DNA of 64,000 nt, taken from positions 206,291 through 270,290 of the forward strand of contig NZ_LT629843.1 of NCBI RefSeq assembly GCF_900106785.1, in the 5' to 3' direction. The DNA is from Prevotellamassilia timonensis (GTDB lineage: Bacteria > Bacteroidota > Bacteroidia > Bacteroidales > Bacteroidaceae). The notes under the pieces are model-generated. The model had not been told where the DNA came from, searched no databases, and was given only the letters and a program-made list of their open reading frames with translations. Each line of letters begins with the position of its first letter. The stretch's first letter is position 1. Of the stretch, positions 6,585 through 63,179 are shown one piece after another. The translations under genes were made by a program, and so were the position numbers.

Positions 6585-6604
6585 TGGGCTGCGCTTATAT
6601 GAGC

Positions 6605-6735: not shown

Positions 6736-6814
6736 GTGCTTGGGGCCTTTTATTGACATCATCGGCTGCGGCTCAGCAATTCAAGGAAACTTGATTGCAT
6801 TCGCCTTGCACGAT

Positions 6815-6865
6815 GATTCAGCCCGCCCTTGTTAAATCAGAAACTTGAATAAAAGTAACTTTTTA
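6815..6865. repeat. Decayed half of a family B palindrome
   Basis: CAGCCCGCCCTTGTTAAATC followed by AACTTGAATAAAAGTAAC matches the right end of the full family B copies at 29022-29299 and 37653-37990. The left half is missing. Confidence 0.55.
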
Positions 6866-6870
6866 ACCTC

Positions 6871-6911
6871 ATAACCCTCTAACCTCATAACCCCCTAACC
6901 CCCTAACCCCT
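6871..6911 (+). repeat. Octamer array (family G) upstream of ispH
   Basis: Five or six consecutive 8-bp units of the form AACCYNNT (AACCTCAT, AACCCTCT, AACCTCAT, AACCCCCT, AACCCCCT) end 2 bp before the ispH ATG. Confidence 0.8.
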
Positions 6912-6913
6912 CC

Positions 6914-24639: not shown

Positions 24640-24780
24640 TGAATGATTGACGGGTTGACAAGTAAGCATGTCTTTTACTATTTATTGTGGTAAAGACAAA
24701 AGGGAAAGGAAAGTGAGAACTTGACCAAGTTGCCCCCTAACCCATTAACCCTCAAACCCATTAACCCCCTAACTCCCTAA
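24640..24780. repeat. Octamer array between lpxB and the SRPBCC gene
   Basis: At 24726-24779 there are six consecutive 8-bp units (CCCCCTAA, CCCATTAA, CCCTCAAA, CCCATTAA, CCCCCTAA, CTCCCTAA) directly before the ATG. A weaker inverted partner (GACGGGTTGACAAGTAAG) lies at 24650. Confidence 0.75.
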
Positions 24781-28930: not shown

Positions 28931-28935
28931 TGTGA

Positions 28936-28995
28936 AGATGCTAATATGTTAATGTGCTAATATGGCAATATGGTAATGGGGTAATGAGGTAATGG
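28936..28995. repeat. Octamer array upstream of the SLC13 permease
   Basis: Consecutive 8-bp units GCTAATAT, GTTAATGT, GCTAATAT, GGCAATAT, GGTAATGG, GGTAATGA, GGTAATGG begin a few bases from the start codon. Confidence 0.75.
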
Positions 28996-29021
28996 GCGGC
29001 CGAGGCGCAGCTTATGAAGAT

Positions 29022-29299: not shown

Positions 29300-29330
29300 T
29301 AACCTCATAACCCCATAACCTCATAACCTA
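29300..29330. repeat. Octamer array at the cysQ stop codon
   Basis: AACCTCAT, AACCCCAT, AACCTCAT, AACCTACT. The last unit contains the cysQ stop codon. Confidence 0.75.
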
Positions 29331-30360: not shown

Positions 30361-31040
30361 CTGGCAGCCGCTAACGCGGTAAACATAAGAACAGAAGGAC
30401 AGAAGAACATAAGATATGACGTTTGTGTTAGCCGCTTACCGCGGGAACATAAGAACATAAGCTACATAAGTAACATATAAGGCCGCTGCGCGGCTAACGG
30501 CCACGGACTAACGTCCGGGTGGCCTCAAGAAACATAAGGGCTGACGCCGTAGCGTTACAATATGTAATACAACGGCGTCAGCCCTTATGTCCTTATGTCC
30601 TTATGTTCTTCTGTTTGCCGCGTTAGCGGCTGCCAAGTCCCGCTACGGCGTCAGCCCTTATGTCTCTTGAGGCCACCCGGACGTTAGTCCGTGGCCGTCA
30701 GCCGCGCAGCGGCCTTATGTGTATCTTATGAAAACTTATGTTCCTTATGTTTTCCGCGCTAAGTGGCTAACACAAACGCCTTCTGTCCTTCTGTCCTTAT
30801 GTTCTTCTGTTTGCCGCGTTAGCGGCTGCCAAGTCCCGCTACGGCGTCAGCCCTTATGTCTCTTGAGACCACCCGGACGTTAGTCCGTGGCCGTCAGCCG
30901 CGCAGCGGCCTTATATGTATCTTATGAAAACCTATGTTCCTTATGTTTTCCGCGCTAAGCGGCTAACACAAACGTAATATCTTCTGTTCTTATGTCCTTA
31001 TGTCCTTTTGTTTACCGCGTTAGCGGCCAACAAGCAACTC
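30360..31040. repeat. Large direct and inverted repeat block
   Basis: Two direct copies of about 180 bp (about 30608-30775 and 30811-30970) share CCGCGTTAGCGGCTGCCAAG, CCACCCGGACGTTAGTCCGT and CGCGCAGCGGCCTTAT. An inverted, shorter arm lies at 30360-30560. Purine-poor CTTATGTCC and TTCTGTCC stretches link them. No gene is seen in the block. The 31041-31200 stretch holds nothing recognisable. Confidence 0.8.
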
Positions 31041-41597: not shown

Positions 41598-41640
41598 CAT
41601 TAGCATATTAGCACATTAACATATTAGCATATTAACGCGC
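41598..41640. repeat. Octamer array between sufB and the epimerase gene
   Basis: Units CCATTAGC, ATATTAGC, ACATTAAC, ATATTAGC, ATATTAAC, each 8 bp. Confidence 0.7.
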
Positions 41641-46441: not shown

Positions 46442-46500
46442 CGAGCCATGCCCGTTGGTGAGGAGCATGACTTGAGGAACCGAACAATGCACGTAGAATA

Positions 46501-46752: not shown

Positions 46753-46824
46753 TGCTAAGGGAGCAGCATTATGAACACCAATAATAATAAGTTATTCGCC
46801 AATGCGCAGATGCGCAAACAAACA

Positions 46825-46861
46825 AACGCCGTAGCGTTACAAGTAGTAACGTTACGGCGTC
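46825..46861 (-). terminator. Hairpin terminator after the Omp28-like gene
   Basis: AACGCCGTAGCGTTAC pairs with GTAACGTTACGGCGT around a 5-base loop. On the minus strand a TTTGTTTGTTTG tail follows. Confidence 0.6.
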
Positions 46862-46865
46862 TGCC

Positions 46866-46902
46866 ATTTATCATATTATCATATTGTCACATTAGCGCAT
46901 CA
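46866..46902. repeat. Octamer array at the Omp28-like stop codon
   Basis: Units CATTTATC, ATATTATC, ATATTGTC, ACATTAGC run up to the TGA of the Omp28-like gene. Confidence 0.6.
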
Positions 46903-49170: not shown

Positions 49171-49232
49171 ATATTATTAGTTATGTAATTAGTTGTTCAA
49201 CTATTGCCGTTTAATATTGCGGCTTGTCAGAT

Positions 49233-49937
49233 TTACTTTACCATGATTTTGACGCTGCTGCCCATGCCTGTTGTGGCAAGGTAGAGGCCGCGCTGCAAAC
49301 CGGCCAGGCTGACTGTGCCATTGGCGGCAGTGGTAGCGGCGCGCTTTACAAGGCGTCCGTCGGTGGCGTAGAGGCTGATAGTGCGCGGTGCTGCCGAGCC
49401 AAAGGCATAGCTGAGTGTGTTGCCGTTCACCTGCAGTCCCTTGTTGTCGGCCTTTACCTGGCTGATGCCTGTGGGGTCGGCATAGACGTAGCGTAACACA
49501 AAGCTTGTTACATATTCATTGTCTGCCATTACAGTCACATTGGCATTAGCCGTCATGTAATTGCCGCTCTTAAAATTGGCGTGCAAGGACATGTCTGTGC
49601 CTTGACCGGGAGCAAGTGGAGCTTCACGTGTTTCGGTAAAAGTGGACATTTCACCACATGAGCCTGTGATGCCGCACCACGAGAAAATGTTTTCCGACGC
49701 CAGTTTGCGGTCAATGACTACTGTCACTTTGAGGTCGACAGCCTCGTCGCCAGTGTTGACGATCATGGGCTCACGGGCTAAAACCTCGCCAGAACCATCA
49801 CCCTCGTCTACATCGGCATAGAATGTCACCACCTCGTTGGTGGCCACCTCCTTGCCGTTGCAAGTAACCTTTACTTGTGCTTTCATGCTTGCAGTGCAGG
49901 CAAGTACCAAAGCCGCAAGCGCTAATAACTTCTTCAT
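49233..49937 (-). CDS. Small secreted protein with C-terminal sorting-like domain
   Basis: The MKKLLALAALVLACTASMKAQ start (49937) gives 234 residues with a signal peptide. A beta-sandwich-like region follows (VTCNGKEVATNEVVTFYADVDEGDG, EPMIVNTGDEAVDLKVTVVIDR), then a C-terminal region typical of sorting domains: TISLYATDGRLVKRA and GLYLATTGMGSSVKIMVK. I do not recognise the central domain. Two cysteines in WCGITGSCGEM could form a disulfide. It lies between two Omp28-like genes and is probably co-expressed with them. Confidence 0.7.
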   Translation of the reverse strand: MKKLLALAALVLACTASMKAQVKVTCNGKEVATNEVVTFYADVDEGDGSGEVLAREPMIVNTGDEAVDLKVTVVIDRKLASENIFSWCGITGSCGEMSTFTETREAPLAPGQGTDMSLHANFKSGNYMTANANVTVMADNEYVTSFVLRYVYADPTGISQVKADNKGLQVNGNTLSYAFGSAAPRTISLYATDGRLVKRAATTAANGTVSLAGLQRGLYLATTGMGSSVKIMVK

Positions 49938-50054
49938 AATGTGTGTATTGTTTGTTATATATATGTATTCGGATTTTACCAACGGCGTGGCGTCTGATTG
50001 GCTCATAAAGCCAAAGCCTGTTTATAAAGCAAACTTACTCGCCTACGCGTATGC

Positions 50055-50870
50055 CTATTGCAACTTGTGGTCAATCACCTGCATCACGCCCTGTTGGTCG
50101 TTGTAAAAGAACACCACCACACTCATGTTCTGCGTGTTCCACGGTGTGTTGTTCTTCAGTGCCGACACATCGGGCAACGTGTAGGTGTAGTGCTTGGTGT
50201 CTGTGGCGCTGGCAGCCAATGTAAGCTGGTCGCCATAGGGGTCGTTTACCGAGGCACGCAGCACATGGTTGTGCACGTACTGGTTGTTCTTGGTGCCGTC
50301 GGGCATATACTGCTGCTGTACGATGCCGCTTTCGGTGAGCCACACTTGCAGACGTCCCGTCACAGACTCGTTTGCCGTCACACTGACATCGAGGTTGAGT
50401 GTCTTGCTCGCTGCGTCATAGGCTATATTGGCAATATTCAACTCGGCAGCAGGCTGTTGAATGATGCGTGTAAGCACAGCGGCAGCCCATTTGTCCGGAC
50501 CTTGCAAGCCGCCCGTACGGTCTATCATGCCCGAAGGCCATTGGCTCACGCCCCAATGTTCGTTGTACGCCTTGCTGGTGGCGTTAGCCAGGCCGAACTT
50601 GTCAGTAGCCTCATCGCGCGAGAGCGAACCGCCATGAATAGAGACGGCCACCACATGTTCGGCACCATAGAGTTGTTGCAGCGAGGCCGCCATGTCGGCT
50701 GCAGATGGACAGTTGACGCACTTCTGCCCCGTAAAATCCTCGACGAGCACATTCTTGCGCGCCTCGGGGACAACAGGCCCAATAAAGCGTTTGTCGCTGT
50801 CTACCTCGTCGCAGGCTGTAAGGCAACCTGCGGCCATGGCCATGCCAAGTATGATATGATGGAGTTTCAT
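50055..50870 (-). CDS. Omp28-like lipoprotein
   Basis: Starting at MKLHHIILGMAMAAGCLTACDE (50870) gives 271 residues with a lipobox (LTAC, Cys20). The Omp28-like domain begins NVLVEDFTGQKCVNCPSAADMAASLQQLYG, with a CxxC, and contains VVAVSIHGGSL and WPSGMIDR. A C-terminal beta domain follows. It probably sits on the outer membrane as a thioredoxin-fold lipoprotein. The reading frame extends upstream into the DUF6029 gene but that part is not coding. It lies 52 bp after the DUF6029 stop. Confidence 0.82.
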   Translation of the reverse strand: MKLHHIILGMAMAAGCLTACDEVDSDKRFIGPVVPEARKNVLVEDFTGQKCVNCPSAADMAASLQQLYGAEHVVAVSIHGGSLSRDEATDKFGLANATSKAYNEHWGVSQWPSGMIDRTGGLQGPDKWAAAVLTRIIQQPAAELNIANIAYDAASKTLNLDVSVTANESVTGRLQVWLTESGIVQQQYMPDGTKNNQYVHNHVLRASVNDPYGDQLTLAASATDTKHYTYTLPDVSALKNNTPWNTQNMSVVVFFYNDQQGVMQVIDHKLQ

Positions 50871-50922
50871 TGTGTATGCTTTTGTTAAATAGGTGAGCGT
50901 GCTTGCCATGTCGGTGCATCGC

Positions 50923-52713
50923 TTAAAAGTTAAACGTGTAGCTGGCTTGCAAGCCCTTCGATGCGGGCACGTAGCGGCACACGCCACCCGAACAGTTGTA
51001 GCCGGCACGTGTCTTGCCGTAGCCCACTTGCAGGCGGTGGGCACCATGGGTATAGGTCACGCTGCCCATGAAGTAGTGCACCTTGTTGGTGCCACCGGCC
51101 TCGTTTTCCGAACCATCGGCATTGTGCATGGGCACATGGGCGTTGAACTGGTCGCTCACGGTGAACATGAAGTTGGGCAGCACGCTCAGCTCGAGCAGGC
51201 CGAACCACCAGTCCTTCTGGTCCTGACGTGTGTGCAAATATTGGGCCTCGCCACGCAGTGTAACCTTGGGGCTGAACTGATATTTGCCCTCGGCTATGAA
51301 GATGTGGCTCTTGATGGCGTCGTAGCCGTGGCCTTCAACTACCTTCTGGTTGTAGCGCTGGTATGAATACATGAAATTGAGCTTGAGCGGTTTGCTCACC
51401 TTCTTTTCAATCTGCACATTCACATCGCGGAAGTAGACGGCATCGCCAAACTTAAAGAAGTGCGACTTGTAGCCGTCAGTGCCCATAAGCTCGCCGCCAT
51501 TGAGGTTGTCAACGTGCTGGTCGATGGCACGAATGTTGGAGAAGTTGACCTTGACATTGGTGCCATACTTGCCGCCCAGCGCGGTGTGGCGCTTGAAGTT
51601 GTAGCCCACTTCGCCCTGGAAAGCCCACTCGCCTGGTGTCATCTGTGTGGCATAGGGGTAGAGTGCGGCCAGCGTGTAGGTTTGCTGCATGGAGAAGGCC
51701 GGCAGGTGGTTGATGTAGCACGGGGTGATGGCATCGATGGTTGAACGCGAGCGGAAGGCCATGTCCTCGCTGCGCTTGGCCTGCAACAGCACGCTCATGC
51801 CGCGCTTTGAATAGGAGCCTGAGAGCAGGAGCGTTTTGCCACGCTTATATATATAGTTGTTGCGGCTTGAGGGGTCCTGACTCTTCCAGGCGTACTCGGC
51901 CAAGAAGTTGTAGTTGTCCTTTTGCAGATTGGCGCGCACATCGAAGGCGGCCACGTCCTTGGGCATATTCAGTTTGTAGGCTGCTATCACCTCGTCGCCC
52001 GTCGCGGGGTCGGTTTCGCCCGTTGGGTGTATGCTGTAAATGTCCTTTTCGGCCTTGCCCTTGTGGTTGCTCACGGCCGACAGGCCGAGGGTGAGGCGTG
52101 TGCCCGACTCGTCCATGCGGCGCACCCATTGGTCTACGCTCAGTTCGAGGTCGCCGCCGTAGGTCCAGGGCGAGCAGCTGTCCATGTTGCGGTGGTGCCA
52201 GTAGTAGCGCTGCTGTCCGGCTATGAGCTTGAGGCTCACGCCCTTGAAGGGCTTGAGTGCCAGGCGCGCACCACGCAACGAGTTGTCTACGCCCAATGAG
52301 CGCTCTTCGTAAGCACGGAATATGAGTCCTGAGCCAAACTGGTCGTAGTAGTCGCCCAATGTGAGTTCGGCCCACTTGTAATTGCCTTTGATGTAAAAAT
52401 ATGGCACGCCCCAGCCCTTGAAGTCTTTTTCAAAACCGGGCAGGGGGTGGTCAAGATATTCCAGGCGGGCTCCCGCTTGGAAATACTTGTTGAGCAAGTG
52501 CAACTCGGCATACGTGTTGGTCATAAACTTGTCGTCGTATGTGCCGGTGCCTATTTTATTGTCTTCGCTGGCGGCTGTAAGGATATCGGTTTGCAGTGAG
52601 CCATGCAGCGTAAATTTCTTGGCGTCGTTGTCTTGTCCGTCTGCATTTTGTGCATGCAGCGGCATGGCGGCCGAGGCCAGAGCTAATGCCGTGATGGCGG
52701 CGTAATGTTTCAT
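50923..52713 (-). CDS. DUF6029 outer-membrane beta-barrel-like protein
   Basis: The 596-residue protein has a signal peptide ending LHAQ and then a series of alternating strands with aromatic ends (GARLEYLDHPLPGFEKDF, GVPYFYIKGNYKWAELTLGDYYDQFGSGLIFRAYEERS). It ends in a C-terminal aromatic residue (QASYTFNF), typical of outer-membrane barrels. I assign it to DUF6029, whose function is unknown. In Bacteroidales it is commonly found between a TlpA-like thioredoxin and an Omp28-like gene, as here. A pore or receptor role is a guess. Confidence 0.8.
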   Translation of the reverse strand: MKHYAAITALALASAAMPLHAQNADGQDNDAKKFTLHGSLQTDILTAASEDNKIGTGTYDDKFMTNTYAELHLLNKYFQAGARLEYLDHPLPGFEKDFKGWGVPYFYIKGNYKWAELTLGDYYDQFGSGLIFRAYEERSLGVDNSLRGARLALKPFKGVSLKLIAGQQRYYWHHRNMDSCSPWTYGGDLELSVDQWVRRMDESGTRLTLGLSAVSNHKGKAEKDIYSIHPTGETDPATGDEVIAAYKLNMPKDVAAFDVRANLQKDNYNFLAEYAWKSQDPSSRNNYIYKRGKTLLLSGSYSKRGMSVLLQAKRSEDMAFRSRSTIDAITPCYINHLPAFSMQQTYTLAALYPYATQMTPGEWAFQGEVGYNFKRHTALGGKYGTNVKVNFSNIRAIDQHVDNLNGGELMGTDGYKSHFFKFGDAVYFRDVNVQIEKKVSKPLKLNFMYSYQRYNQKVVEGHGYDAIKSHIFIAEGKYQFSPKVTLRGEAQYLHTRQDQKDWWFGLLELSVLPNFMFTVSDQFNAHVPMHNADGSENEAGGTNKVHYFMGSVTYTHGAHRLQVGYGKTRAGYNCSGGVCRYVPASKGLQASYTFNF

Positions 52714-52752
52714 GTGATGATGCGTCGTGTTTGAGGGAGAGGGGGGGGGAGA

Positions 52753-52849
52753 AGTTTTGAGTTTTGAGGTTATAAGGTTATAAAGTTACCTTTGGCTATT
52801 GAGCTCGCAGAGGTTACTTTATAACCTTATAACCTCAAAACTCAAAACT
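52753..52849. repeat. 39-bp-arm hairpin made of octamer units
   Basis: Arms 52753-52791 and 52811-52849 differ at one position. Each arm is a series of 8-bp units (GTTTTGAG, TTTTGAGG, TTATAAGG, TTATAAAG). It sits between the TlpA-like and DUF6029 genes and could attenuate read-through. Confidence 0.85.
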
Positions 52850-52870
52850 AAACAAAACTCCAAACTGAAA

Positions 52871-53374
52871 TTACTTCTTGCTGGCGGCAATGAGTTCCTT
52901 CACCTTGTCGATGAGGTGCTGTTCGCCACCCTCAGTGTAACCACTGCGGCTTTCGGCTATCTTGCCATTGCCGTCAATCACAAATACGTGGGGAATCATG
53001 TTCACGCCCATGGCACGGCGGAAGTCAGAGTTAGGGTCAAGCAGCACTTGGTACTCCCAGCCTGCAGCATCGACCATGGGTTTTACCTTCTGTGCGTTCT
53101 GTGCCTCGTCAATGCTCACAGCCACCACACGCACACCGGTTTCGTCCTGCCAGTCGGCATAGACCTCGTTTATGGCTTTAAGCTCGCGGTTGCAGGGCTT
53201 GCACCATGTGGCAAAGAAACTGATGATGAAGGGTTTGCCATCGTTGCTGAGCGTTGCAGTATCAATGGTTTTACCGTTAATATCCTTCAGTTTGACAGAA
53301 GGCAGCTGCGCAAAGGCGCTTGCCGTTACCCCTACAAAAAGGAGCAAGGCCAACAATAGCTTAGTTACTTTCAT
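52871..53374 (-). CDS. TlpA-like periplasmic thioredoxin
   Basis: The MKVTKLLLALLLF start (53374) gives 167 residues with a signal peptide ending AFAQ. The thioredoxin fold has FFATWCKPCNRELKAINEVY (CxxC), VRVVAVSIDEAQ and a cis-Pro loop in NMIPHVFVID. Such proteins reduce disulfides or transfer electrons in the periplasm. It is the first gene of a five-gene co-oriented cluster with two Omp28-like proteins. A TAATTTTG box at 53446-53453 lies about 70 bp upstream. An in-frame Met at 53437 is less likely. Confidence 0.9.
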   Translation of the reverse strand: MKVTKLLLALLLFVGVTASAFAQLPSVKLKDINGKTIDTATLSNDGKPFIISFFATWCKPCNRELKAINEVYADWQDETGVRVVAVSIDEAQNAQKVKPMVDAAGWEYQVLLDPNSDFRRAMGVNMIPHVFVIDGNGKIAESRSGYTEGGEQHLIDKVKELIAASKK

Positions 53375-53445
53375 TTTGGTTGAATTTTGGTTGATGCCGT
53401 GGCAAGTAGACACTTGTCGGGGCATGATTGATTGCATTATCGCGG

Positions 53446-53453
53446 CAAAATTA
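53446..53453 (-). promoter_or_regulatory. Promoter -7 box of the thioredoxin/Omp28 cluster
   Basis: Minus-strand TAATTTTG upstream of the TlpA-like gene. From 53454 to 53700 I see no other feature. Confidence 0.45.
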
Positions 53454-53740
53454 CGCCTTTTAGTTGTATTGGCAAATACTATGGCATTGAAAAAAGCTGA
53501 AACACAACGTTTAAGGGTATTTATGGGGTCATGTAAAGTGTTTTTGTGCGGTTTTGTCTACACCTTATTATATTATACACCGCTTTAGCTCTGGTAATTT
53601 ATTTTTTTGCCGTTTTGCTTGCATCTTGCACTTTTGCATAACAAAAGCTTGATAATCAACGGATAAAAATGTGTAGGCAGCCTCTAATTTTACATGCACT
53701 ACCATCTGCACGCATCAATTACGGCAGTGCGTTTTTTCAG

Positions 53741-53816
53741 CATAGGGAGGGCGATTACAGAGCATAGGGAGGGCGAATTTTCATTTGCTCCGACATTATT
53801 TTCGGGCTCCCTATGC
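53741..53816 (-). repeat. Family F 76-bp element, copy 2
   Basis: Reverse-complement match to 8137-8212, with three ATAGGGAG/CTCCCTAT boxes. Confidence 0.7.
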
Positions 53817-53855
53817 CGGTCACTCCCTACCTGCATGACGTATACATGCTTGCCC

Positions 53856-53921
53856 GTGCAAGGTTGTGCAGGGAGTGCAGGTTGGAGTGCAGGTAGTGCA
53901 AGAAGTGCAGGCAGTGCAGGC
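53856..53921. repeat. AGTGCAGGN array, about 9-bp units
   Basis: AGTGCAGGT, AGTGCAAGA, AGTGCAGGC and AGTGCAGGC follow each other, preceded by looser copies. Confidence 0.6.
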
Positions 53922-54055
53922 AAAAGTGTAAGCAGATTTCAGCATTACCTACACTACGTAACTTTATGAGTATCAACACATTACTATTAAAGAGTGCAAG
54001 ATGCAAGTAAAATAGCAAAAAAGGTGTGTAGGGGAGTTATAGGAGCACAAAGCGC

Positions 54056-54130
54056 AAGCACTAATGGAGGCGACGCGTTTGGTGGTAGCGTTTTGATGAT
54101 AGCGTTTGATGGCGGCGTTTGGTGTTTGAA
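54056..54130. repeat. Truncated family A arm with right-type units
   Basis: A left arm start (TAATGGAGGCGACGCG) runs straight into 13-bp-like units without the stem-loop partner. Confidence 0.6.
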
Positions 54131-54325
54131 GAAACGCAAGCTCTAATGGGGGCGACGCGTCTCGCGTCGGGAATAGTGCAGCTGTTATTTAGTAGAGCTT
54201 GTATTCTTTTCTTTCATTTTCCCGACGCGAGACGCGTCGCCCCCATTAGAGCTTGCGTTTTGAGCTAGCGTTTTGATGATAGCGTTTTATGCTAGCGTTT
54301 GGTGGTGGCGCTTAGCGCTTGAAGA
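54130..54325. repeat. Family A complete element downstream of RAYT (distal)
   Basis: REP arms at 54144 and ending 54248 enclose GTGCAGCTGTTATTTAGTAG. The right side continues with four or five 13-bp units, ending at the GCGCTTGAAGAAACGC joint. Confidence 0.88.
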
Positions 54326-54482
54326 AACGCAAGCACTAATGGGGGCGACGCGTCTCGCGTCGGGGAAAGATACAGCTGTTATTTAGTAGAGCTTGTTTGC
54401 TTTTCTTTCATTTTCCCGACGCGAGACGCGTCGCCCCCATTAGAGCTTGCGTTTAGTGGTAGCGTTTTGATGATAGCGTTTA
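54325..54482. repeat. Family A complete element abutting the RAYT stop
   Basis: REP arms at 54337 and ending 54442 enclose the same middle as its neighbour. The last right-type unit leads into the TTA stop codon of the RAYT gene. Confidence 0.88.
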
Positions 54483-55100
54483 TCGCAGAATGGCATAATT
54501 AGACATTGGCTTGAAGTTGGGATAACCGTCTGTCAGATATAAGCTGTATTCATTGCTATGTAATCCGCGTGGATTGCGTGCTATGTAGTCGACTACTTTC
54601 CAATAATGGTGTTCATTGCGAATTATACGGTCAAATGACTCTGATTGCCATACTTTGCCATTGACATTGAGCAACTCGTTAAGTTTATGTGCAGTGTATG
54701 ATTTTAGTGAAGCTATTACAGACTGAATGCTAAAGTTATTGATAGTTTGCAGTATTAGATGTACGTGATTAGGCATTATCACATAATCGTGTATGTGATA
54801 ACGGCTATGGTCAAAATGGTGAAACGCGTGTTCTACAAGTTTCCTCGCCTCTACTATTTTAAGCATGCAACAACCAAGGCATCTGTCAAGCAGACTGTTG
54901 ATTGTTTGCAACTTCAACCTTTCTAATTCATTTGCCTCTTCAGTAGTCAGTACATTACCATGTGCTTTTTGCCATGCGCTAACAGTTCTTTTGTACTCCA
55001 TGGTGGCATCTGCGGGCATTGAATCTGCCAATCTGAATGTAACGAAGTATATTTTACCCTCTATATGCCAGTGAGGCAGGTCGCCACGTGTTATGTACAT
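54480..55100 (-). CDS. REP-associated tyrosine transposase (RAYT, Y1/IS200-like)
   Basis: RAYTs are single-copy relatives of IS200/IS605 transposases that bind and nick REP hairpins. The 206-residue protein starts MYITRGDLPHWHIEGKIYFVTFRL, has the metal-binding HUH motif in YVIMPNHVHLIL (H112, H114) and VWQSESFDRIIRNEHHYWKVVDYIARNP, with the likely catalytic Tyr172. The fold appears complete. It is flanked by family A elements on both sides (two complete plus one broken 3', three complete 5'), the arrangement expected for a RAYT and its REPs. The stop codon lies inside a 13-bp repeat unit. Activity has not been shown. Confidence 0.9.
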   Translation of the reverse strand: MYITRGDLPHWHIEGKIYFVTFRLADSMPADATMEYKRTVSAWQKAHGNVLTTEEANELERLKLQTINSLLDRCLGCCMLKIVEARKLVEHAFHHFDHSRYHIHDYVIMPNHVHLILQTINNFSIQSVIASLKSYTAHKLNELLNVNGKVWQSESFDRIIRNEHHYWKVVDYIARNPRGLHSNEYSLYLTDGYPNFKPMSNYAILR

Positions 55101-55119
55101 AGGTATTATATTTTAAGAT

Positions 55120-55305
55120 TAAAAGTGACGCAAGCACAAAACGCTAGCACTAAACGCAAGCTCTAATGGGGGCGACGCGTCTCGCGTCGGGGATAATGCA
55201 GCTGTTATTTAGTAGAACTTGTATTCTTTTCTTTCATTTTCCCGACGCGAGACGCGTCGCCCCCACTAGAGCTTGCGTTTTGTGGTAGCGTTTGGTGGCG
55301 TTTGG
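55120..55305. repeat. Family A complete element upstream of RAYT (proximal)
   Basis: Left units ACGCAAGCACAAA, ACGCTAGCACTAA, ACGCAAGCTCTAA lead to the REP arm at 55164. The right arm ends at 55268 (one change, CCCACTAGAG). Confidence 0.88.
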
Positions 55306-55470
55306 TGCTTGAAGAAACGCTAGCACTAATGGGGGCGACGCGTCTCGCGTCGGAGATAGTGCAGCTGTTATTTAGTAGAGTTTGTATTCTTTTCTTTCAT
55401 TTTCCCGACGCGAGACGCGTCGCCCCCATTAGAGCTTGCGTTTTGTGGTAGCGTTTGGCGGCGTTTGGTG
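55305..55470. repeat. Family A complete element upstream of RAYT (middle)
   Basis: Starts at the GCTTGAAGAAACGC joint. REP arms at 55327 and ending 55431, with the TTATTTAGTAGAGTTTG middle. Confidence 0.88.
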
Positions 55471-55650
55471 CTTGAAGAAACGCAAGCACTAATGGGGGCG
55501 ACGCGTCTCGCGTCGGGAATAGCGCAGCTGTTATTTAGTAGAGCTTGTTTTGTATTCTTTTCTTTCATTTTCCCGACGCGAGACGCGTCGCCCCCATTAG
55601 AGCTAGCGTTTTGAGGTGGCGTTTTGTGGTAGCACTTTGCGCTTGACGCT
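55470..55650. repeat. Family A complete element upstream of RAYT (distal)
   Basis: REP arms at 55490 and ending 55599, then right-type units down to the stop codon of the RluA-like gene. Confidence 0.88.
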
Positions 55651-55652
55651 GG

Positions 55653-56534
55653 CTATTTTTGCTGTGCTGTACCCAGTCTGAAGCCCTTGGGCACAGGTGT
55701 TTCAAAGCGGAGCGGCTCACCCGTCATGGGGTGGTAGAAGTTGAGACGGTAGGCGTGCAAGGCCAGGCGGCCTATGGGGTCGTCGCCATTGCCATACTTT
55801 ATATCGCCGCACACGGGGTGTCCGAGGTCCTGCATGTGTACACGTATCTGGTTTTTGCGTCCCGTTTCGAGCTTGAGCTCTACAAGCGAGTGCTTGCCGT
55901 CAGTGCGCAACACGCGGTAGTGCGTCAGGGCATACTTTCCGCCATTGTCCACGGGCGAAGAGTAGGTGAAGTATGCCTTGTTGTCCTTGAGCCAGCTCTC
56001 TACACTGCCCTGCTTTTGTGGCAGCTCGCCCGACACAAGGGCCAGATAACGGCGGTCGGTCACAATGTCGCGCCAGTTGTGCTCCAATATCTGCTCGGCC
56101 TGCAATGTTTTGGCATACACCAGTAAGCCCGAGGTGTCGCGGTCGAGACGGTGCACCACGTGGGCGGTACACTTTTGGTGTGTGCGGTGAAAGTAGTAGT
56201 CGAGCACCTGCTTCACACAAAAGGCGTGGTGCGAGGTGGCCATTGACAATATGCCGGGGGCCTTTTCTATCACAATTATCTGAGGGTCTTCATACACAAT
56301 CTTTACAAACTTTGATTGCAGTTCGCCCTTGGGCTTGCGCTTTGATATTTCGACTACCTGGCCGGGACGCAGCTCGAGGTCGAACTGTCGTGTGTTTTTG
56401 CGGTCGACGCGCACACCGCCTCCGCTCAGTATGGCTTTGGCGCGGCTGCGGCTCACACCGTTGAGGGCGTGTTCTATAAACTGGAGCAGCTGCATGGGCT
56501 GCTTTACGTGGTATGTGGTATATTGCAGTTGCAT
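55653..56534 (-). CDS. RluA/RluD-family pseudouridine synthase
   Basis: The enzyme converts uridine to pseudouridine in rRNA or tRNA. I start it at MQLQYTTYHV (56534), giving 293 residues. The open frame continues upstream to 57056, but that part overlaps porX in another frame and is low-complexity. An S4 domain (QLLQFIEHALNGVSRSRAKAILSGGGVRVD) is followed by the catalytic HVVHRLDRDTSGLLVYAKT with its Asp, and by GRKNQIRVHMQDLGHPVCGDIKYG. The target uridine is unknown. Confidence 0.9.
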   Translation of the reverse strand: MQLQYTTYHVKQPMQLLQFIEHALNGVSRSRAKAILSGGGVRVDRKNTRQFDLELRPGQVVEISKRKPKGELQSKFVKIVYEDPQIIVIEKAPGILSMATSHHAFCVKQVLDYYFHRTHQKCTAHVVHRLDRDTSGLLVYAKTLQAEQILEHNWRDIVTDRRYLALVSGELPQKQGSVESWLKDNKAYFTYSSPVDNGGKYALTHYRVLRTDGKHSLVELKLETGRKNQIRVHMQDLGHPVCGDIKYGNGDDPIGRLALHAYRLNFYHPMTGEPLRFETPVPKGFRLGTAQQK

Positions 56535-56564
56535 GGGGATATGTATTTGGTATGGTTGATGGGG

Positions 56565-56658
56565 GGGGACGGGGTTGACGGGTAAGTTTGTCAGGTTTGT
56601 ACGTTTCCTTTTGTCTTTAATTATATAATACAGAACATACTTACCTGTTAACCCGTTA
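56565..56658. repeat. Inverted ACGGGTTGACGGGTAAG-type element
   Basis: GGGTTGACGGGTAAGTTTGT at the left and ACATACTTACCTGTTAACCC at the right form an imperfect inverted pair of family G type between the RluA-like gene and porX. Confidence 0.5.
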
Positions 56659-56659
56659 A

Positions 56660-58207
56660 TTATCTTCGTTTTGGCCTCAGCGTGATGAGCGGCACCAGCA
56701 TCTCCTCCATGGATATGCCGCCATGCTGGAAGGTGTCGGTGTAGTACTGCACGTAGTGGTTGTAGTTGTTGGGGTAAGCAAAGAAGCGGTTGCCCGTGGC
56801 AAATATGTACGCTGTGCTGAGGTTGGGCTGTGGCAGGAGGAGGGCCTTTGGCTCGCGCACCTCGTACACGTCCTTGGCGTTGTACGACAGGTTGCGGCCT
56901 AACTTGTAGCGCAGGTTGGTGTTGACGTTGCGGTCGCCCACCACTTTGGAGGGTTGGTCCACCTTGATGCTGCCGTGGTCGGTGGTGATGATGAGGTCGT
57001 AGTCGAGTTCGGCCAGCTGTCTGAAGAGTTGGCGTATGGGGGTGTGCTTGAACCACGATTGGGTGATGCCGCGGTAGGCACCCTCGCTGCCGGCCAACTC
57101 GCGCACCATGCGGCTTTCGGTGCGTGCATGGCTCAGTATGTCGATAAAGTTGATTACGAGCACGTTGAGGGGCGTGGCGGCAAACTGCTTTATTTGCGTC
57201 AGCAACTGACTCACGGCTTGCGAGTCGTTGAGTTTGTGGTAGGTAAACTGCTCGCGACGGCGGAAGCGCTCGAGCTGGTGGGCTATCAATGCCTTCTCGT
57301 TAAGGTTTTTGCCTTCGTCCTCCTCCTCGTCCACCCACAGGTCGGGATACATCTGCTTTATTTGCAGCGGCATGAGTCCGGCAAATATGGCATTGCGCGC
57401 ATACTGTGTGGCTGTGGGCAGTATGGTGTAATAGAGGTCTTCGTCGATGTCGAAGTCGTCGGCCAGCTCGCCTGATATGGCGCGCCATTGGTCGTAGCGC
57501 AGGTTGTCGAGCACGAGCAGGAACACCTTGCGGCCGGCTGTGAGGCGCGGGAATATGCAGCGCTTGAACAGGTCGGGACTCATGAGCGGACGCTCGTCGG
57601 GGTGTTGCACCCAATGCGCGTAATGCCGTTTTATAAACTTGGCAAAGGTGGCATTGGCCTCTTCCTTCTGCATGCGCAGCATGTCGTCCATGGCGCTGCC
57701 CGTCGAGGCCAGTTCGAGCTCCCAATGCACCAGCCGGCGGTAGAGTTCCTTCCACTCGTCGGGGTTCAGCTGTTCGCTCAGTTGCATGCCGATGCGCCCG
57801 AAGTCCTGGCGGTAGCCAGTTTGTGTCACCTCCTGCACAATCTCGCGTTGGTGTATATTCTTTTTGAGCGTGAGCAGTATCTGCTTGGGGTTGACGGGCT
57901 TTATCAGGTAGTCGGCAATTTTTGAGCCGATGGCCTGGTCCATGATGTCCTCCTCCTCGTTCTTGGTCACCATCACCACGGGCAGGTTGGGCGCGATGTC
58001 CTTCAGCTGCATGAGCGTTTCGAGCCCCGAGAGTCCGGGCATGTTCTCGTCGAGCAGCACCAAGTCGAAGCGCTGCTCGCGGCAAAGGTCTATGGCGTCG
58101 GGGCCATTGCTGGCCGTCACCACCTCATAGTCTTTTTTCTGTAAAAAGATGATGTGGGCGCGGAGCATATCTATCTCGTCGTCCACCCAAAGCAAACGTG
58201 CGGTCAT
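56660..58207 (-). CDS. porX: PorX-like response regulator with PglZ domain
   Basis: PorX is the response regulator that controls type IX secretion genes in Bacteroidetes. Starting at MTARLLWVDDE (58207) gives 515 residues. The receiver domain has the acidic D9/D10, phospho-acceptor D53 (LLDENMPG) and a conserved Lys in LIKPVNP. The long C-terminal part is an alkaline-phosphatase-like PglZ domain (VFLLVLDNLRYDQW, NVLVINFIDILSHAR, DYDLIITTDHGSIKV), which hydrolyses nucleotides in PorX. No porY kinase is nearby. The presence of several proteins with sorting-like domains in the window fits this regulator. Confidence 0.92.
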   Translation of the reverse strand: MTARLLWVDDEIDMLRAHIIFLQKKDYEVVTASNGPDAIDLCREQRFDLVLLDENMPGLSGLETLMQLKDIAPNLPVVMVTKNEEEDIMDQAIGSKIADYLIKPVNPKQILLTLKKNIHQREIVQEVTQTGYRQDFGRIGMQLSEQLNPDEWKELYRRLVHWELELASTGSAMDDMLRMQKEEANATFAKFIKRHYAHWVQHPDERPLMSPDLFKRCIFPRLTAGRKVFLLVLDNLRYDQWRAISGELADDFDIDEDLYYTILPTATQYARNAIFAGLMPLQIKQMYPDLWVDEEEDEGKNLNEKALIAHQLERFRRREQFTYHKLNDSQAVSQLLTQIKQFAATPLNVLVINFIDILSHARTESRMVRELAGSEGAYRGITQSWFKHTPIRQLFRQLAELDYDLIITTDHGSIKVDQPSKVVGDRNVNTNLRYKLGRNLSYNAKDVYEVREPKALLLPQPNLSTAYIFATGNRFFAYPNNYNHYVQYYTDTFQHGGISMEEMLVPLITLRPKRR

Positions 58208-58308
58208 TGTGTGTGTGTATGATAAAAATGGACATTGGCGATGCTCGCCGTGCTCATAAATGTACAAATGTGCAAATGTGCACATCTGCACATTTGCACA
58301 TCAGCGCA

Positions 58309-59415
58309 TCAAATTCTGTACCCCCACTGGTCGAGCACATCGCCCCAGTTGTCCTCCACAAGCTGGCGTGTGCGGTCGGCGTATTGGTACTTGTTCTTCT
58401 TATACCCCTTCTTCGAACCCACATACTGGGCTATGGCCGTCTTGGCGTTGTCCCAACCGGGGAGCGAGAGTGTGCGGTATATCTCTTCGGTCATGCCAAG
58501 GGCATCGGCCTCAAAGTCCTCAAACTTCACCTCGATGAGGTTGCCCTCGGGAATGAGGTGCTTGTCGGCCTCATATTGGTCGTGCAGCTTGCGGTAGGTG
58601 GTGAGTATGTTCTGCTCAATGGCCTCGTTGCTGAACTCCTCAAGTTTGAGCGGCTGAATGGTGTTGGTAAAGAATGAGCGTGTGCTCTCAAACACCGTGT
58701 AGGGATTGCGCATGAGGTAGATGAACTTGGCGTTGGGGAACATCTTTACCAACTCCTTTACACGGCCCGTGTGGGGCGGGTTCTTCGAAAGGAACTGCTC
58801 GCCGCCTGTGTTCCACAGCGAAATCTTGATAAGCTTGCGGAAAGTCTCCTCCCACACATTCAGTTCGGCTGGGGTGATGTCCTTAAATATAAGATACTTG
58901 TCGCAATACTCCTGCATGTACTTGGGGAAGAACCAGAAGTTGTAGAAGGTGTAGGGGCACATGTTAGAAATGGCAAACTCCTCCTCTTGCGGCAGGTCGA
59001 CGGCCAGCTCCATGTTGTCGGTCGGACGCTTGTCGGGCATGAGCCACGACATGTTCTTCTTAAAGAAAGGCTGGCCGAACATCATCAGGTGCGGAAACAC
59101 CGTTTGATAGGTGGTGCAATAGCCAAAGCGCTTGTCGCACGAGAGCACATTGTGCACAAAGGTAGTGCCCGAGCGCCAGTGGCCGAGTATGAACACGGGG
59201 TCGTGCTTGAGCGGTTCGTTGGCCAAGAGCTTTTGATAGCGACGCTCCTGCACGGGGGCGAGCACCGAGAGCAAGCGGCACACGGCCTTGGTCAGGCGAT
59301 ATTTGCCACGCCAGGGGGCATCGACCTCGCGGCCGGCTGTAAGTTCCTTAAAGGTTTTCCAATCTGCTCCTACGAGCGTATTGATAGGGAGTTTGTTGAA
59401 TTCTATAAGACCCAT
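58309..59415 (-). CDS. PAPS-dependent sulfotransferase family protein
   Basis: Sulfotransferases move a sulfuryl group from PAPS to hydroxyl or amine groups. The 368-residue protein has a 5'-phosphosulfate loop VFILGHWRSGTTFVHNVLSC (R81 to T85) and a 3'-phosphate-binding region LMRNPYTVFESTRSFF (about residue 235). No signal peptide is seen, so it acts in the cytoplasm or at the membrane. The acceptor is unknown; lipid, steroid or glycan are all possible. A TACCTTTG promoter at 59624-59631 lies about 210 bp upstream, separated by an inverted octamer repeat. CysD, CysQ and the SLC13 permease would supply and clear its cofactor. Confidence 0.85.
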   Translation of the reverse strand: MGLIEFNKLPINTLVGADWKTFKELTAGREVDAPWRGKYRLTKAVCRLLSVLAPVQERRYQKLLANEPLKHDPVFILGHWRSGTTFVHNVLSCDKRFGYCTTYQTVFPHLMMFGQPFFKKNMSWLMPDKRPTDNMELAVDLPQEEEFAISNMCPYTFYNFWFFPKYMQEYCDKYLIFKDITPAELNVWEETFRKLIKISLWNTGGEQFLSKNPPHTGRVKELVKMFPNAKFIYLMRNPYTVFESTRSFFTNTIQPLKLEEFSNEAIEQNILTTYRKLHDQYEADKHLIPEGNLIEVKFEDFEADALGMTEEIYRTLSLPGWDNAKTAIAQYVGSKKGYKKNKYQYADRTRQLVEDNWGDVLDQWGYRI

Positions 59416-59454
59416 TGTAGAGTGTGTTGTTGCTTTTATATAAGATATATACGC

Positions 59455-59612
59455 GTTGGCGGAATTAGCAAGCGAGTTGACAAGCTGACGGGGTGACAGG
59501 TATGTTTGCCGAGTTTTTTAAGCCTCTTGCCAGCCATAGGCAGTGTATGGCTTGCTTACTTGTCAAGCTGTCAACTTGTAAACCCGTTAACCAATAATTC
59601 CGCCAACGGGTA
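59455..59612. repeat. Octamer-type inverted repeat upstream of the sulfotransferase
   Basis: GGCGGAATTAGCAAGCGAGT at the left and CAACTTGTAAACCCGTTAAC then AATTCCGCC at the right form an inverted pair with 8-bp internal periodicity around GCCATAGGCAGTGTATGGC. Confidence 0.65.
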
Positions 59613-59623
59613 AGATATGGGTG

Positions 59624-59631
59624 CAAAGGTA
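59624..59631 (-). promoter_or_regulatory. Sulfotransferase promoter -7 box
   Basis: Minus-strand TACCTTTG. Confidence 0.5.
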
Positions 59632-59717
59632 GTACTTTTTTGCGTGTAGGAGTATGTGTCACTGCACAATAATGCACACGCCACAGGCACGCGGGGTATG
59701 CGGGGGGAGGAGGGGCA

Positions 59718-62207
59718 TTACTCCACGTCGAAATATATGGTCACGCTCTTGTACACATCGAAACCGTGCACCACATCGCGGGCTGCCAGCAGAGTGCGCC
59801 GCACGCTCGTGGGGGTGAATTGCAGCGGCACCTTGAGCATTATTTTGCGTATGTACTGCATCTGCACACGCGCCACCACCGGGCGGTCGGGGCCCAACAT
59901 GCCGTCGGCAAAGTGGGGGCGCAGCAGGGCTGCAAGGTGGCGTGCCGCGTGGTCCACCACCGCGTCATTGCGGTGTTTGAGGTAGATGCTTATGATGCGG
60001 CTGAAGGGCGGATAGCCAAAAGCCTGACGCTCGGCCAGCTGCTGGCGGTACATGGCCTCGTAGTCGGAACGCCTCACATAGTCGATGATGGGGTTGTCGG
60101 CCTGCTTGGTCTGCACCACCACCAGTCCGCGGCTGCCACGGCGGCCGGCACGCCCCGCCACCTGGCTCATCATTTGGTAGGCACGCTCGTAGGCACGGAA
60201 GTCGGGCTGTCCCAGCATTTGGTCGGCATTGAGCACGCCCACCACCTGCACGCGGTCAAAGTCAAGGCCCTTGGTCACCATCTGTGTGCCAATGAGCAGA
60301 TTGGTGTCGCCCGAGGCAAAACGGTGTATAATGCGCTCGTAGGCTGTGCGCGAGCGTGTGGTGTCGAGGTCCATGCGCTCCATGCGTGCATCGGGGAAAG
60401 CCTTGGCGGCCTCATCTTCTATCTTCTCCGTGCCATAGCCCATGTCGCGCATCTCGGTGCCGCCACAGGCCGGACACTGGGTGGGCACACTGTACTGCGC
60501 CCCGCAATAGTGGCATACCAGTTTGCCCAAGCGCTGGTGGTAGGTAAGACTCACGTCGCAGCGTGTGCAACGGGGCGTCCAGCCACAAGCCTTGCACTCG
60601 AGCACGGGGGCATAGCCGCGACGGTTCTGAAAGAGTATGGCCTGCCCCCCACCCTCAATGGCCTTGCGCACCTCGGTGGCAAGCCGCGGGCTGAAGGGTG
60701 ACTTCATCAGGCGCTTGCGCCGCAACTCCTTCACGTCCTCCACCACTATTTCGGGCAACTCCACGCCCCCATAGCGGTGGGCCATGCGCACCAGTCCGTA
60801 CTTGCCGCTCAGGGCATTGTGGTAGGTTTCGATGGCTGGCGTGGCCGTGCCGAGCAGCACCTTGGCTCCAAGTTGGTGTGCCATGACAATGGCCGTGTCG
60901 CGGGCATGGTAACGGGGGGCGGGGTCCTGCTGCTTGTAGCTCGTTTCGTGCTCCTCGTCTACAATGACAAGGCCCAACCGTCTGAAAGGCAGAAACAGCG
61001 ACGAGCGCACACCGACCACCAACGGGAAAGCCTCGGGGGTGAGCTGGCGCTGCCACATCTCCACACGCTCGGCGTCAGGAAACTTGGAGTGATACACGCC
61101 CATCTGTGTACCAAACACACGTTCGAGCCGCGAGGTGAGCTGGGTGGTGAGTGCTATTTCGGGCACAAGGTACAGCACCTGTTCGCCACGCGCCAGTGTC
61201 TCCTTTATCAGCTGGGTGTACACCTCGGTTTTGCCGCTCGATGTCACACCATGCAGCAGGCACACTTCCTTGGTGGCGAAGGCCGCCACTATCTCGTCGT
61301 GGGCACGCTGCTGCTCAGTGCTCAACGGTTTGTCAAGCATGGGGGCGTCCTGCCCTGCCCGCTCGGCCACAGAGGGGCGCAAGCGGCTGGTTTCGACGGC
61401 ATACACCTCGAGCACGCCGCGCTTTTTGAGTGCGGCAAGGGCTGTGGCGGCATTGGGCGCGTGGCACAGGTCGTGGCGTGTCACGGGCTTGAGCATCTGG
61501 GCGTTGCCCAACTTTACAGCCGCAGTCACACCGGCCATGTCGAGATAGTTCACAAACAGGGCATGCTGGGCCGGGGCGCGCTGCAAGGCGTCGAGCGTGA
61601 GGTGGAGTGCCACCTCCGTAAACAGTGCGGGGGCCAGACGCACATAGGCCTCGGTGCGCGGTTTGAAACTATGTGTCATGCTTTCGCGCACCACCACAGC
61701 GCCCAGTTGCATCAGGTGCCTTATGGGGCGCATCAGGGCGCGCTGCCCAAGGGCTTTCTCTATGGCCAATATGTTGTAGCCCTTATCGGCACTTAGCACA
61801 CGGCAGATGTCAGCCTCTATGGGCGTGAGGGGTTCCTCGGCCGACGGCACATAGTCATCGTTGCGCAGCAGTGTGGTCTCGCTCTCAAGTTTCAGCCCCG
61901 ACGGCAGCGCCGCCTTCATCACCTCGCCCTGCGTACACATATAATAACTGCTTATCCACTGCCACAGCTTGAGTTGTGCGGGCAGCACCACGGGGGTATT
62001 GTCGGCCACATCGCTCACAGCCTTGAGCTGGCCCGCACCCTCGGGGGGCGTGTTGCTCAAGGCCGTCACGATGCCCGTGTAGTAGCGGCGTGCGCCAAAC
62101 TGCACCACCACACGCACACCGGGCTTTACCCGTGCGGCCAACTCAGGCGGCACGGTGTAAGTAAAGGTGGTCCCGACAGCAAGGGGCAGAAGTATCTGGG
62201 CGTACAT
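59718..62207 (-). CDS. priA: Primosomal protein N' (PriA helicase)
   Basis: PriA restarts stalled replication forks by binding D-loops and reloading the replicative helicase. The 829-residue protein has an N-terminal 3'-OH-binding domain (MYAQILLPLAVGTTFTYTVP), Walker A GVTSSGKTEVY, the DEEH box VIVDEEHETSYKQQD and helicase motifs (LLGTATPAIETY, FLFQNRRGYAP-like). Eight zinc-binding cysteines lie in CKACGWTPRCTRC and CHYCGAQ...CPACGG, and MVTKGLDFDRVQVVGVLNAD follows. Length is normal. An octamer array lies just upstream of the start. Confidence 0.96.
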   Translation of the reverse strand: MYAQILLPLAVGTTFTYTVPPELAARVKPGVRVVVQFGARRYYTGIVTALSNTPPEGAGQLKAVSDVADNTPVVLPAQLKLWQWISSYYMCTQGEVMKAALPSGLKLESETTLLRNDDYVPSAEEPLTPIEADICRVLSADKGYNILAIEKALGQRALMRPIRHLMQLGAVVVRESMTHSFKPRTEAYVRLAPALFTEVALHLTLDALQRAPAQHALFVNYLDMAGVTAAVKLGNAQMLKPVTRHDLCHAPNAATALAALKKRGVLEVYAVETSRLRPSVAERAGQDAPMLDKPLSTEQQRAHDEIVAAFATKEVCLLHGVTSSGKTEVYTQLIKETLARGEQVLYLVPEIALTTQLTSRLERVFGTQMGVYHSKFPDAERVEMWQRQLTPEAFPLVVGVRSSLFLPFRRLGLVIVDEEHETSYKQQDPAPRYHARDTAIVMAHQLGAKVLLGTATPAIETYHNALSGKYGLVRMAHRYGGVELPEIVVEDVKELRRKRLMKSPFSPRLATEVRKAIEGGGQAILFQNRRGYAPVLECKACGWTPRCTRCDVSLTYHQRLGKLVCHYCGAQYSVPTQCPACGGTEMRDMGYGTEKIEDEAAKAFPDARMERMDLDTTRSRTAYERIIHRFASGDTNLLIGTQMVTKGLDFDRVQVVGVLNADQMLGQPDFRAYERAYQMMSQVAGRAGRRGSRGLVVVQTKQADNPIIDYVRRSDYEAMYRQQLAERQAFGYPPFSRIISIYLKHRNDAVVDHAARHLAALLRPHFADGMLGPDRPVVARVQMQYIRKIMLKVPLQFTPTSVRRTLLAARDVVHGFDVYKSVTIYFDVE

Positions 62208-62217
62208 GTGAAGAGGG

Positions 62218-62275
62218 GTTAGGGGGTTAGGAGGTTAGAGGGTTAATGGGTTAGGAGGTTAATGGGTTAATGGCA
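62218..62275. repeat. Octamer array upstream of priA
   Basis: Seven consecutive 8-bp units on the plus strand: TTAGGGGG, TTAGGAGG, TTAGAGGG, TTAATGGG, TTAGGAGG, TTAATGGG, TTAATGGC. Confidence 0.85.
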
Positions 62276-62500
62276 TGGCGCGCAGCACGCCACTGGTGCA
62301 AAGATAGTACATTCTGCACAAATATGCCGCCACGCTGGCGCAAGCATATAGCGCAACACCGAACGGGGGAAACGCCGTTCACACTCTTTCAACTCCTTTC
62401 AAACCGCTTTCACTTATTCAAAAATTCCAAATAATTGTCCAAAATCACGCCTAACACCCTATTTTTCTGCAAAAAACGTGCAACGTATACCAAAAGGTCG

Positions 62501-62508
62501 TACATTTG
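62501..62508 (+). promoter_or_regulatory. Promoter -7 box for the outer-membrane protein
   Basis: TACATTTG, about 90 bp before the start codon at 62601. From 62276 to 62500 no other feature is seen. Confidence 0.55.
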
Positions 62509-62600
62509 CGCCAACAATCAGTTGGCAACGGTGCAACACATGGCGCAAAACCGCCACACGAAATGCGACCGTGGCCGTAACTATTAAAATTGACACTACA

Positions 62601-63179
62601 ATGAAAAAGGTATTCTTAACAGTAGCTCTCGCTGCCGCTTCATTGGCAGCAAGTGCACAGGTTTACGTAGGTGGTGGAGTAGGTTTCTGGCGCAATGCTG
62701 ACGACAACCACACTAATTTCAATATCAAACCCGAGATTGGTTACAACCTCTCAGATAAGTGGGACCTCGGTATCGGCATTGGCTTCAACCATGACTACTA
62801 TGGCAAGGGCGAATATGACGGCGAGACTCTCTCAAAGACTAAGGTTAACAGCTTTGAGGTTGACCCGTACGCTCGTTGGAGCTTTGTAAAGTTCGGTCCC
62901 GTTAAGCTCTTCCTCGACATGGGCTTCGGTATCAACACTTACAAGGTTAAGGGTGAAATAATGGGCCACGACTATGATAGCGACGCTCAGGTAGGCTGGC
63001 GCATAGGTGTTCAGCCCGGTGTAAAGGTTTCTTTGGCCAAGAACGTTGACTTCGTTGCTCACATGGGCTTCCTCGGCTACCAAGAAGCTGACGATAACCT
63101 CTGCTCATACGGCGAAGACGGCTTCGGCTTCAAATTCTCAGGCAACAACCTCAACTTTGGTATCCTCTACAACTTCTAA
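62601..63179 (+). CDS. Outer-membrane beta-barrel protein (porin-like, OmpW/OmpX size)
   Basis: Starting at MKKVFLTVALAAASLAASAQ (62601) gives 192 residues: a signal peptide and then an eight-strand-like barrel pattern (VYVGGGVGFWRN, FNIKPEIGYNLSDKWDLGIGIGFN, SFEVDPYARWSFVKFGPVKLFLDMGFG, GWRIGVQPGVKVSLAKNVDFVAHMGFLG). It ends in the aromatic C-terminus GILYNF used for membrane insertion. The earlier start at 62478 lies in the promoter region. The codon use here (GGT, CTC, AAG) looks biased like a highly expressed gene. Substrate is unknown. Confidence 0.85.
   Translation: MKKVFLTVALAAASLAASAQVYVGGGVGFWRNADDNHTNFNIKPEIGYNLSDKWDLGIGIGFNHDYYGKGEYDGETLSKTKVNSFEVDPYARWSFVKFGPVKLFLDMGFGINTYKVKGEIMGHDYDSDAQVGWRIGVQPGVKVSLAKNVDFVAHMGFLGYQEADDNLCSYGEDGFGFKFSGNNLNFGILYNF

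Follow-up and report, generated by a model that had tools for sequence, protein, structure and literature searches.

Tandem octamer arrays as candidate arms of inverted intergenic elements in Prevotellamassilia timonensis

Introduction

In bacteria, the usual view of short tandem arrays is that they reflect simple slippage. The STRR heptamers of cyanobacteria are short-period intergenic arrays with 7-bp units; we know of no inverted pairing in these, nor in the heptamers of Xanthomonas and Nostoc. REPINs consist of an inverted pair around a short spacer, a layout shared by the elements described here, and a RAYT gene is typically flanked by its REPs, a layout matched by palindromes around the single Y1_Tnp gene of the genome studied here. 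The G-quadruplex heptamer of Xanthomonas and Nostoc (PMC4692102) is likewise a short-period intergenic array with a 7-bp unit. MacGregor (2015, PMC4679880) described TAACTGA heptamers as direct repeats in Beggiatoaceae, Cyanobacteria and five Bacteroidetes, and BrickBuilt of Porphyromonas gingivalis is a MITE with a minisatellite (Klein 2015, PMC4596501).

We analyzed a 64,000-nt stretch of P. timonensis DNA (hereafter the window, meaning the whole stretch) within its genome of 3,475,353 bases in 17 contigs. TAACTGA heptamers, MITEs with minisatellites and REPINs are the closest known systems to the arrays we find, and none fits fully. Like the TAACTGA heptamers (PMC4679880), the arrays are short, tandem and intergenic, often lie bases from a start codon, contain a TAAC core, supply forward-frame stop codons, show no apparent gene-function pattern and are patchy among species. 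Whereas the TAACTGA unit is 7 bp and mostly invariant, the unit here is 8 bp (TAACCYNN and others) with three free columns; arrays are often inverted pairs around a core, fall into several classes within one genome, and are found beside both start and stop codons. BrickBuilt (PMC4596501), likewise from Bacteroidales, also carries tandem units inside an intergenic element that has inverted ends and dispersed copies, but its bricks are 23 bp long and lie between leader and tail; in the present elements the units are 8 bp long, and it is their arrays that form the inverted arms. REP and REPIN sequences (PMC3116915, PMC3733652, PMC8266576) are similarly intergenic, hairpin-forming and present in many copies. 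Each REP arm is one palindrome, associated with a RAYT, in contrast to the tandem-array arms found here. The STRR and Xanthomonas/Nostoc heptamers resemble the present arrays as short-period intergenic bacterial arrays and differ in having 7-bp rather than 8-bp units. Among the titles and abstract openings found by searching a library of open-access papers, we recognized no description of inverted octamer arrays.

Results

Octamer arrays in the window and across the genome

An initial annotation of the window had listed degenerate 8-bp arrays at eight places. All eight are present at, or a few bases from, those places (Table 1); seven are true arrays, and the other, at 52753-52849, proved to be a 97-bp palindrome with 42-nt arms rather than a single array. 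The proposed unit patterns, AACCYNNT and CAYATTAR, correspond to classes TAACCYNN (A) and CATATTAR (D), and the neighboring genes had been named in agreement with Pfam matches as far as these were tested: ispH encodes LytB (PF02401), LpxB (PF02684) precedes the array at 24733-24780, the transporter gene (27377-28930) matches CitMHS / Na_sulph_symp, the cysQ-like gene (29328-30107) is of inositol-phosphatase type, sufB encodes SufB (PF01458), and the Omp28-like gene matches PF11551. The CATTAR-like units at 28935-28994 read toward the transporter gene start on the minus strand, and a stretch of about 45 bp before the array at 29300-29329 resembles that preceding 6856. Arrays absent from that annotation comprise one at 25329-25352, four of CTTATGT type (30382-30414, 30583-30615, 30779-30811 and 30980-31011), and an inverted pair at 58258-58311 that has no long core. 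Further tandem repeats, with units of about 65 and 73 bp, lie at 3739-3958 and 30149-30356.

Table 1. Array features of the window
Feature	Position	Strand	Context
TAACCYNN array, class A, single arm	6856..6910	+	ends 3 bp before ispH ATG (6914)
TAACCYNN array, class A, single arm	24733..24780	+	ends 1 bp before ATG at 24782
CATATTAR-type array, class D	28935..28994	-	4 bp upstream of transporter gene's longest frame
TAACCYNN array, class A	29300..29329	+	overlaps stop codon of cysQ-like gene
Four class E arrays, CTTATGT/ACATAAG, about four units each	30382..31011	.	among CCGCTAACGCGG and GGCGTCAGCC palindromic pieces
CATATTAR array, class D	41599..41634	+	9 bp from sufB stop; ACGGCGTCCGCC precedes
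CATATTAR array, class D	46868..46893	+	6 bp from Omp28-like stop; ACGGCGTCTGCC precedes
Complete class A element, left arm (8-bp units and half-core)	52753..52794	-	
Hairpin loop of the 52753-52849 element	52795..52807	.	
Right arm of the 52753-52849 element	52808..52849	+	95% complementary to left arm
AAATGTGC array abutting inverted GCACATTT-type units	58258..58311	.	at stop codon
TAACCYNN array, class A, single arm	62215..62273	-	7 bp upstream of priA ATG

We scored each period from 2 to 30 in the intergenic DNA of the window and 20 further stretches, using gene calls from a codon-bias script in which start codons are approximate. Period 8 was the strongest short period, with 85 segments in 129,385 intergenic bases, a density inflated by the choice of most of the 20 stretches at matches to the TAACC pattern; five dinucleotide shuffles of the intergenic sequence gave a mean of 0.0, and coding sequence contained one such segment in 334,305 bases. 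Other intergenic periods included 13 (33 segments) and harmonics at 16, 24 and 26. A less biased sample, consisting of the window and five stretches without listed matches, held 26 period-8 segments in 54,564 intergenic bases, patchily distributed when counted over whole stretches: 11 in the window, 11 in stretch L009, three in L028, one in L012, and none in two of the five stretches (L018 and L027). The pattern TAACCN3TAACCN3TAACC matches the genome 141 times and its reversed form not at all. The proposal of a genome-wide 8-bp repeat system thus survives comparison with shuffled intergenic DNA. The idea of a single system does not, as the arrays fall into several unit classes and often form inverted pairs around a core.

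Unit columns vary at two speeds

The genome contains units of class A (TAACCYNN), class B (AACTYNTN type, mostly from one phage-like gene group in L009), class C (GTYAACYY type), class D (CATATTAR), class E (CTTATGT type) and a 13-bp class. Within class A (39 arrays, 150 unit pairs), neighboring units agree at the TAACC columns with identities of 0.96, 0.96, 0.95, 0.95 and 0.95, whereas the three free columns give 0.56, 0.33 and 0.54, a level of difference between neighbors similar to that of random draws. All 181 class A units have a pyrimidine at position 6, and none has G at position 8. GG runs, considered with regard to G-quadruplexes, occur in this class only. Classes B, C and E likewise vary at two speeds, at other columns. 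For the 64 period-8 arrays of this genome, and for periods 7, 8 and 9 in stretches from the genus, no permutation reached the observed concentration of mismatches in columns; the exception was period 8 in 80 named loci, which scored 111 where the null distribution extended up to 119. Eleven arrays without a partner within 400 bp keep their fixed columns as well as 31 partnered arrays do. Single arms obey the unit rule too, so that pairing between arms is not by itself a sufficient explanation. We read the two-speed columns as a probable constraint on each unit; common ancestry of copies can likewise confine variation to certain columns.

Many arrays pair as inverted arms around a core

A unit-based search of the genome, including loci fetched by BLAST with the 97-bp element, yielded 34 inverted pairs consisting of an array, a core of up to 69 bp (the commonest gap being 41 bp) and an inverted array; the other arrays are single arms. 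Matches to the triple TAACC pattern often run as a minus-strand array followed at a fixed distance by a plus-strand array. The half-core GGTWAYYTTWTAACC has 43 genome matches (reversed pattern, none), and the 97-bp element has 62 BLAST matches, many of them the two strands of one palindrome. Hybrids are also present; in L021 (15226-15359), for instance, a class A arm stands opposite a class B arm. Numerous arrays in this genome nevertheless lack a nearby inverted partner: period detection gave 41 close array pairs, of which 13 were inverted, 15 direct and 13 unrelated; the low share of inverted pairs is due in part to class E copies lying side by side.

As RNA, the copy at 52753-52849 folds at -61 kcal/mol, which is no independent proof since any inverted array would fold. 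We set aside arm covariation as proof of selection on the hairpin: the arm-to-arm match is borderline within classes, with permuted arms scoring at least as high in 57 of 1000 trials, and the strong match obtained without class stratification (0 of 2000) is a class effect. The elements have the terminal inverted repeats, non-coding nature and dispersed copies of MITEs, and the inverted pair with short spacer of REPINs. Target-site duplications were not evident by eye around seven full copies. A stretch of roughly 300-380 bp with inverted ends (AACTCAAGTTTCGGATTT... and ...AAATCCGAAACTTGAGT) sits between array halves at window 28995-29300, L019 9089-9450 and L026 10385-10770, and is possibly a separate MITE inserted in the array elements.

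Placement depends on gene orientation

The arrays had been described as lying directly at gene boundaries. This holds for a good minority and not for most gaps: in 30 of 70 gaps with arrays, the nearest gene edge is no more than 15 bp away, whereas 1000 random placements averaged 17.9 such gaps and never exceeded 28. Edges within 15 bp were found on the start side in 14 of the 70 and on the stop side in 20. Class A and B gaps are co-directional in 33 of 35 cases; with L009 left out, 24 of 26 are co-directional (P = 0.018) and none of the 26 convergent (P = 0.031). Taking classes A, B and C together (28/34, P = 0.21), the inclusion of class C makes the preference no longer significant. The 13-bp class prefers convergent gaps (12/26, P = 7e-6), and six of 17 class E gaps are convergent. 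The suggested independence from gene function agrees with these observations, although gene orientation does matter; the suggested shaping of leaders or 3' ends is possible. Class A reads TAACC toward the start codon at ispH, at the gene with its ATG at 24782 and at priA, the three cases inspected visually.

The architecture recurs in relatives with other units

The nearest named relatives of this PriA belong to rumen Prevotellaceae/Alloprevotella metagenome genomes (57-58% identity), and the best identity among 57 other genus genomes is 65%. The triple TAACC pattern occurs in nine of 37 genus genomes, this one included, with counts of 141, 94, 46, 15, 13, 8, 3, 2 and 1, the reversed control also matching once in two low-count genomes. 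The half-core GGTWAYYTTWTAACC is present in four of the 57 other genus genomes; in the loci read, cores are of GTAACTTT type in G034 and GGGCTGCGCGACGCC type in G012. In the order's other families the pattern is near chance (5 of 24 genomes, counts 1-8), the reversed control matching in some genomes and, in G052, 11 times against three.

The 40 stretches sampled from 23 genus genomes contain 14 close array pairs. Of these, 11 are inverted, with both arms sharing one period in every case; among random pairs the corresponding share is 1.7%. The stretches were picked blind to arrays except G061:C54 and G023:C48, which contain priA loci already known to carry arrays; TAACC matches in G009, G012, G034, G026, G010 and G003 were known beforehand. 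The inverted pairs have periods of 7 bp (G066, G023, G012, G003), 8 bp (G061, G012, G010), 9 bp (G064) and 10 bp (G036). Among the 80 named loci, six of 19 close pairs are inverted and one direct, with 2.4% expected. Unit sequence and length (7, 8, 9 or 10 bp) are species-specific, and many genus genomes have few arrays or none. An array lies directly upstream of priA in three of 12 loci, each with a different unit: 8-bp GGTTA here, 8-bp AGTAAAC in one relative and 7-bp CATTGAC in another. Among longer intergenic periods, 21/22 is the most frequent in relatives; such arrays, several with internal palindromes, occur in G033, G081, G067, G008, G002, G064, G020 and other genus genomes. Two Prevotella metagenome loci (L057 6683-6790, L076 6686-6793) carry an identical inverted heptamer element.

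Phage-like surroundings and other candidates

L009 (G000:C13:20001-40000) contains, at 353-7732, a phage-like gene group with class B hairpins in most co-directional gaps; its phage-like signs are a Terminase_4 match just below cut-off, Amidase_2, HNH and a nearby integrase. We rejected a phage origin of the arrays. Of eight viral contigs encoding a relative of one gene of the L009 group, six lack period-8 arrays, and L238 and L239 have a single array apiece. A phage collection contains no match to this gene, and synteny of the group is not kept in the eight loci. Four-unit patterns in viral contigs number only 35 stretches for TAACC and nine for TCAACT. Loss of SbcCD as the reason palindromes are tolerated was also discarded, SbcD being present (4.5e-49). 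Arrays close all six reading frames in 28 of 99 cases, against 10.5 for column-permuted arrays; as a general rule, however, a six-frame stop barrier fails, since the excess of opposite-strand stops in TAACC units here (92.8% versus 86.2% column-shuffled) is reversed in relatives (81.8% versus 87.1%).

Discussion

The periodicity, the inverted architecture, the two-speed columns, the species-specific units and the co-directional preference are direct observations. We give an even chance to the following explanation of them: the arrays are arms of short non-coding intergenic elements, each an array of 8-bp units, a core some tens of bases long and an inverted array, shaped by slippage, by spread and by a factor that reads the units. 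Complete copies could form a long stem, many places retaining one arm only. In co-directional gaps the element would be transcribed, placing the stem between two coding regions; alternatively, the transcript may carry a leader that is poor in G and rich in stops next to the start codon, and the complementary sequence next to the stop codon. Arm length would change through unit slippage, cores would be copied into new gaps, and selection would keep elements out of genes, leaving them against start and stop codons. The fixed unit part, TAACC in class A, would be held by something reading every unit rather than by arm pairing, the likeliest candidate being a factor that binds DNA or RNA at an 8-base pitch. 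A single factor predicts one motif, however, and the genome has at least four.

Recognition of TAACC units beside start codons, likened to the published heptamer, would account for the several arrays that end 1-15 bp from a start codon, with start-side edges this close in 14 of 70 gaps; two-speed columns fit sequence recognition, and a TAAC core is shared with the heptamer (PMC4679880). Yet stop-side edges are at least as close (20/70), inverted pairs would bury the site in a stem, and the 8-bp pitch is common to several unrelated motifs. We consider this account unlikely. That the arrays are plain microsatellites, intergenic slippage tolerated without function or mobility, seems decidedly unlikely to us: nearly array-free coding sequence (one in 334 kb), variable lengths and species specificity would all be expected, but not five fixed columns beside free columns that differ like random draws, inverted equal-period pairs far above chance in relatives, or cores that are dispersed copies.

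The genome's only Y1_Tnp (IS200-like, RAYT-like) gene lies within window 54030-55640 among copies of an inverted palindrome pair (CCGACGCGAGACGCGTCG). Mobilization of REP/REPIN-like elements by this single IS200-type transposase is suggested by the position of its gene (54480-55100, minus strand) between GACGCGTCTCGCGTC palindrome blocks with 13-bp arrays, and by GTAG- or CGTC-bearing palindromes in classes D and E and the 13-bp class. The flanks, however, are 13-bp/GACGCG palindromes; no TAACC array and none of classes A-C adjoins the gene, and TAACC arrays occur in G034, G026, G021 and G003 (56-87% complete), where no Y1_Tnp match was found. The 13-bp class suits this reading far better than classes A-C do, and as an account of the arrays it is quite improbable. 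Intrinsic terminators with repeated stems would explain long intergenic stems and half-cores finishing in short T runs (GGTAATCTTTT), but a terminator-like site was found inside none of 52753-52849, 58258-58311 and 62215-62273, 46000-63000 holds 17 such sites against 19.6 expected, and classes A and B, which do not show the terminator signature of a GC-rich stem and T run enriched at convergent ends, shun the convergent gaps (0/26) where terminators are needed. We regard termination as very improbable. Rfam at gathering score recognizes only two tRNAs in the window.

The preferred reading, array arms around a core, could extend beyond this species. It is conceivable, if unlikely, that "array-armed" elements exist across Bacteroidales, each species having its own unit of 7, 8, 9 or 10 bp in which a fixed core for recognition is joined to freely varying spacer positions, a mirror-image build made by dedicated copying or hairpin templating, and a lineage-specific factor that reads one unit after another. 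One architecture recurs in relatives with differing unit lengths and sequences, and the same niche upstream of priA holds different arrays in different species. A unit of fixed and free parts is not predicted by slippage alone, and these observations make an old puzzle testable, namely why the intergenic DNA of some bacteria is filled with arrays of 7-9 bp units.
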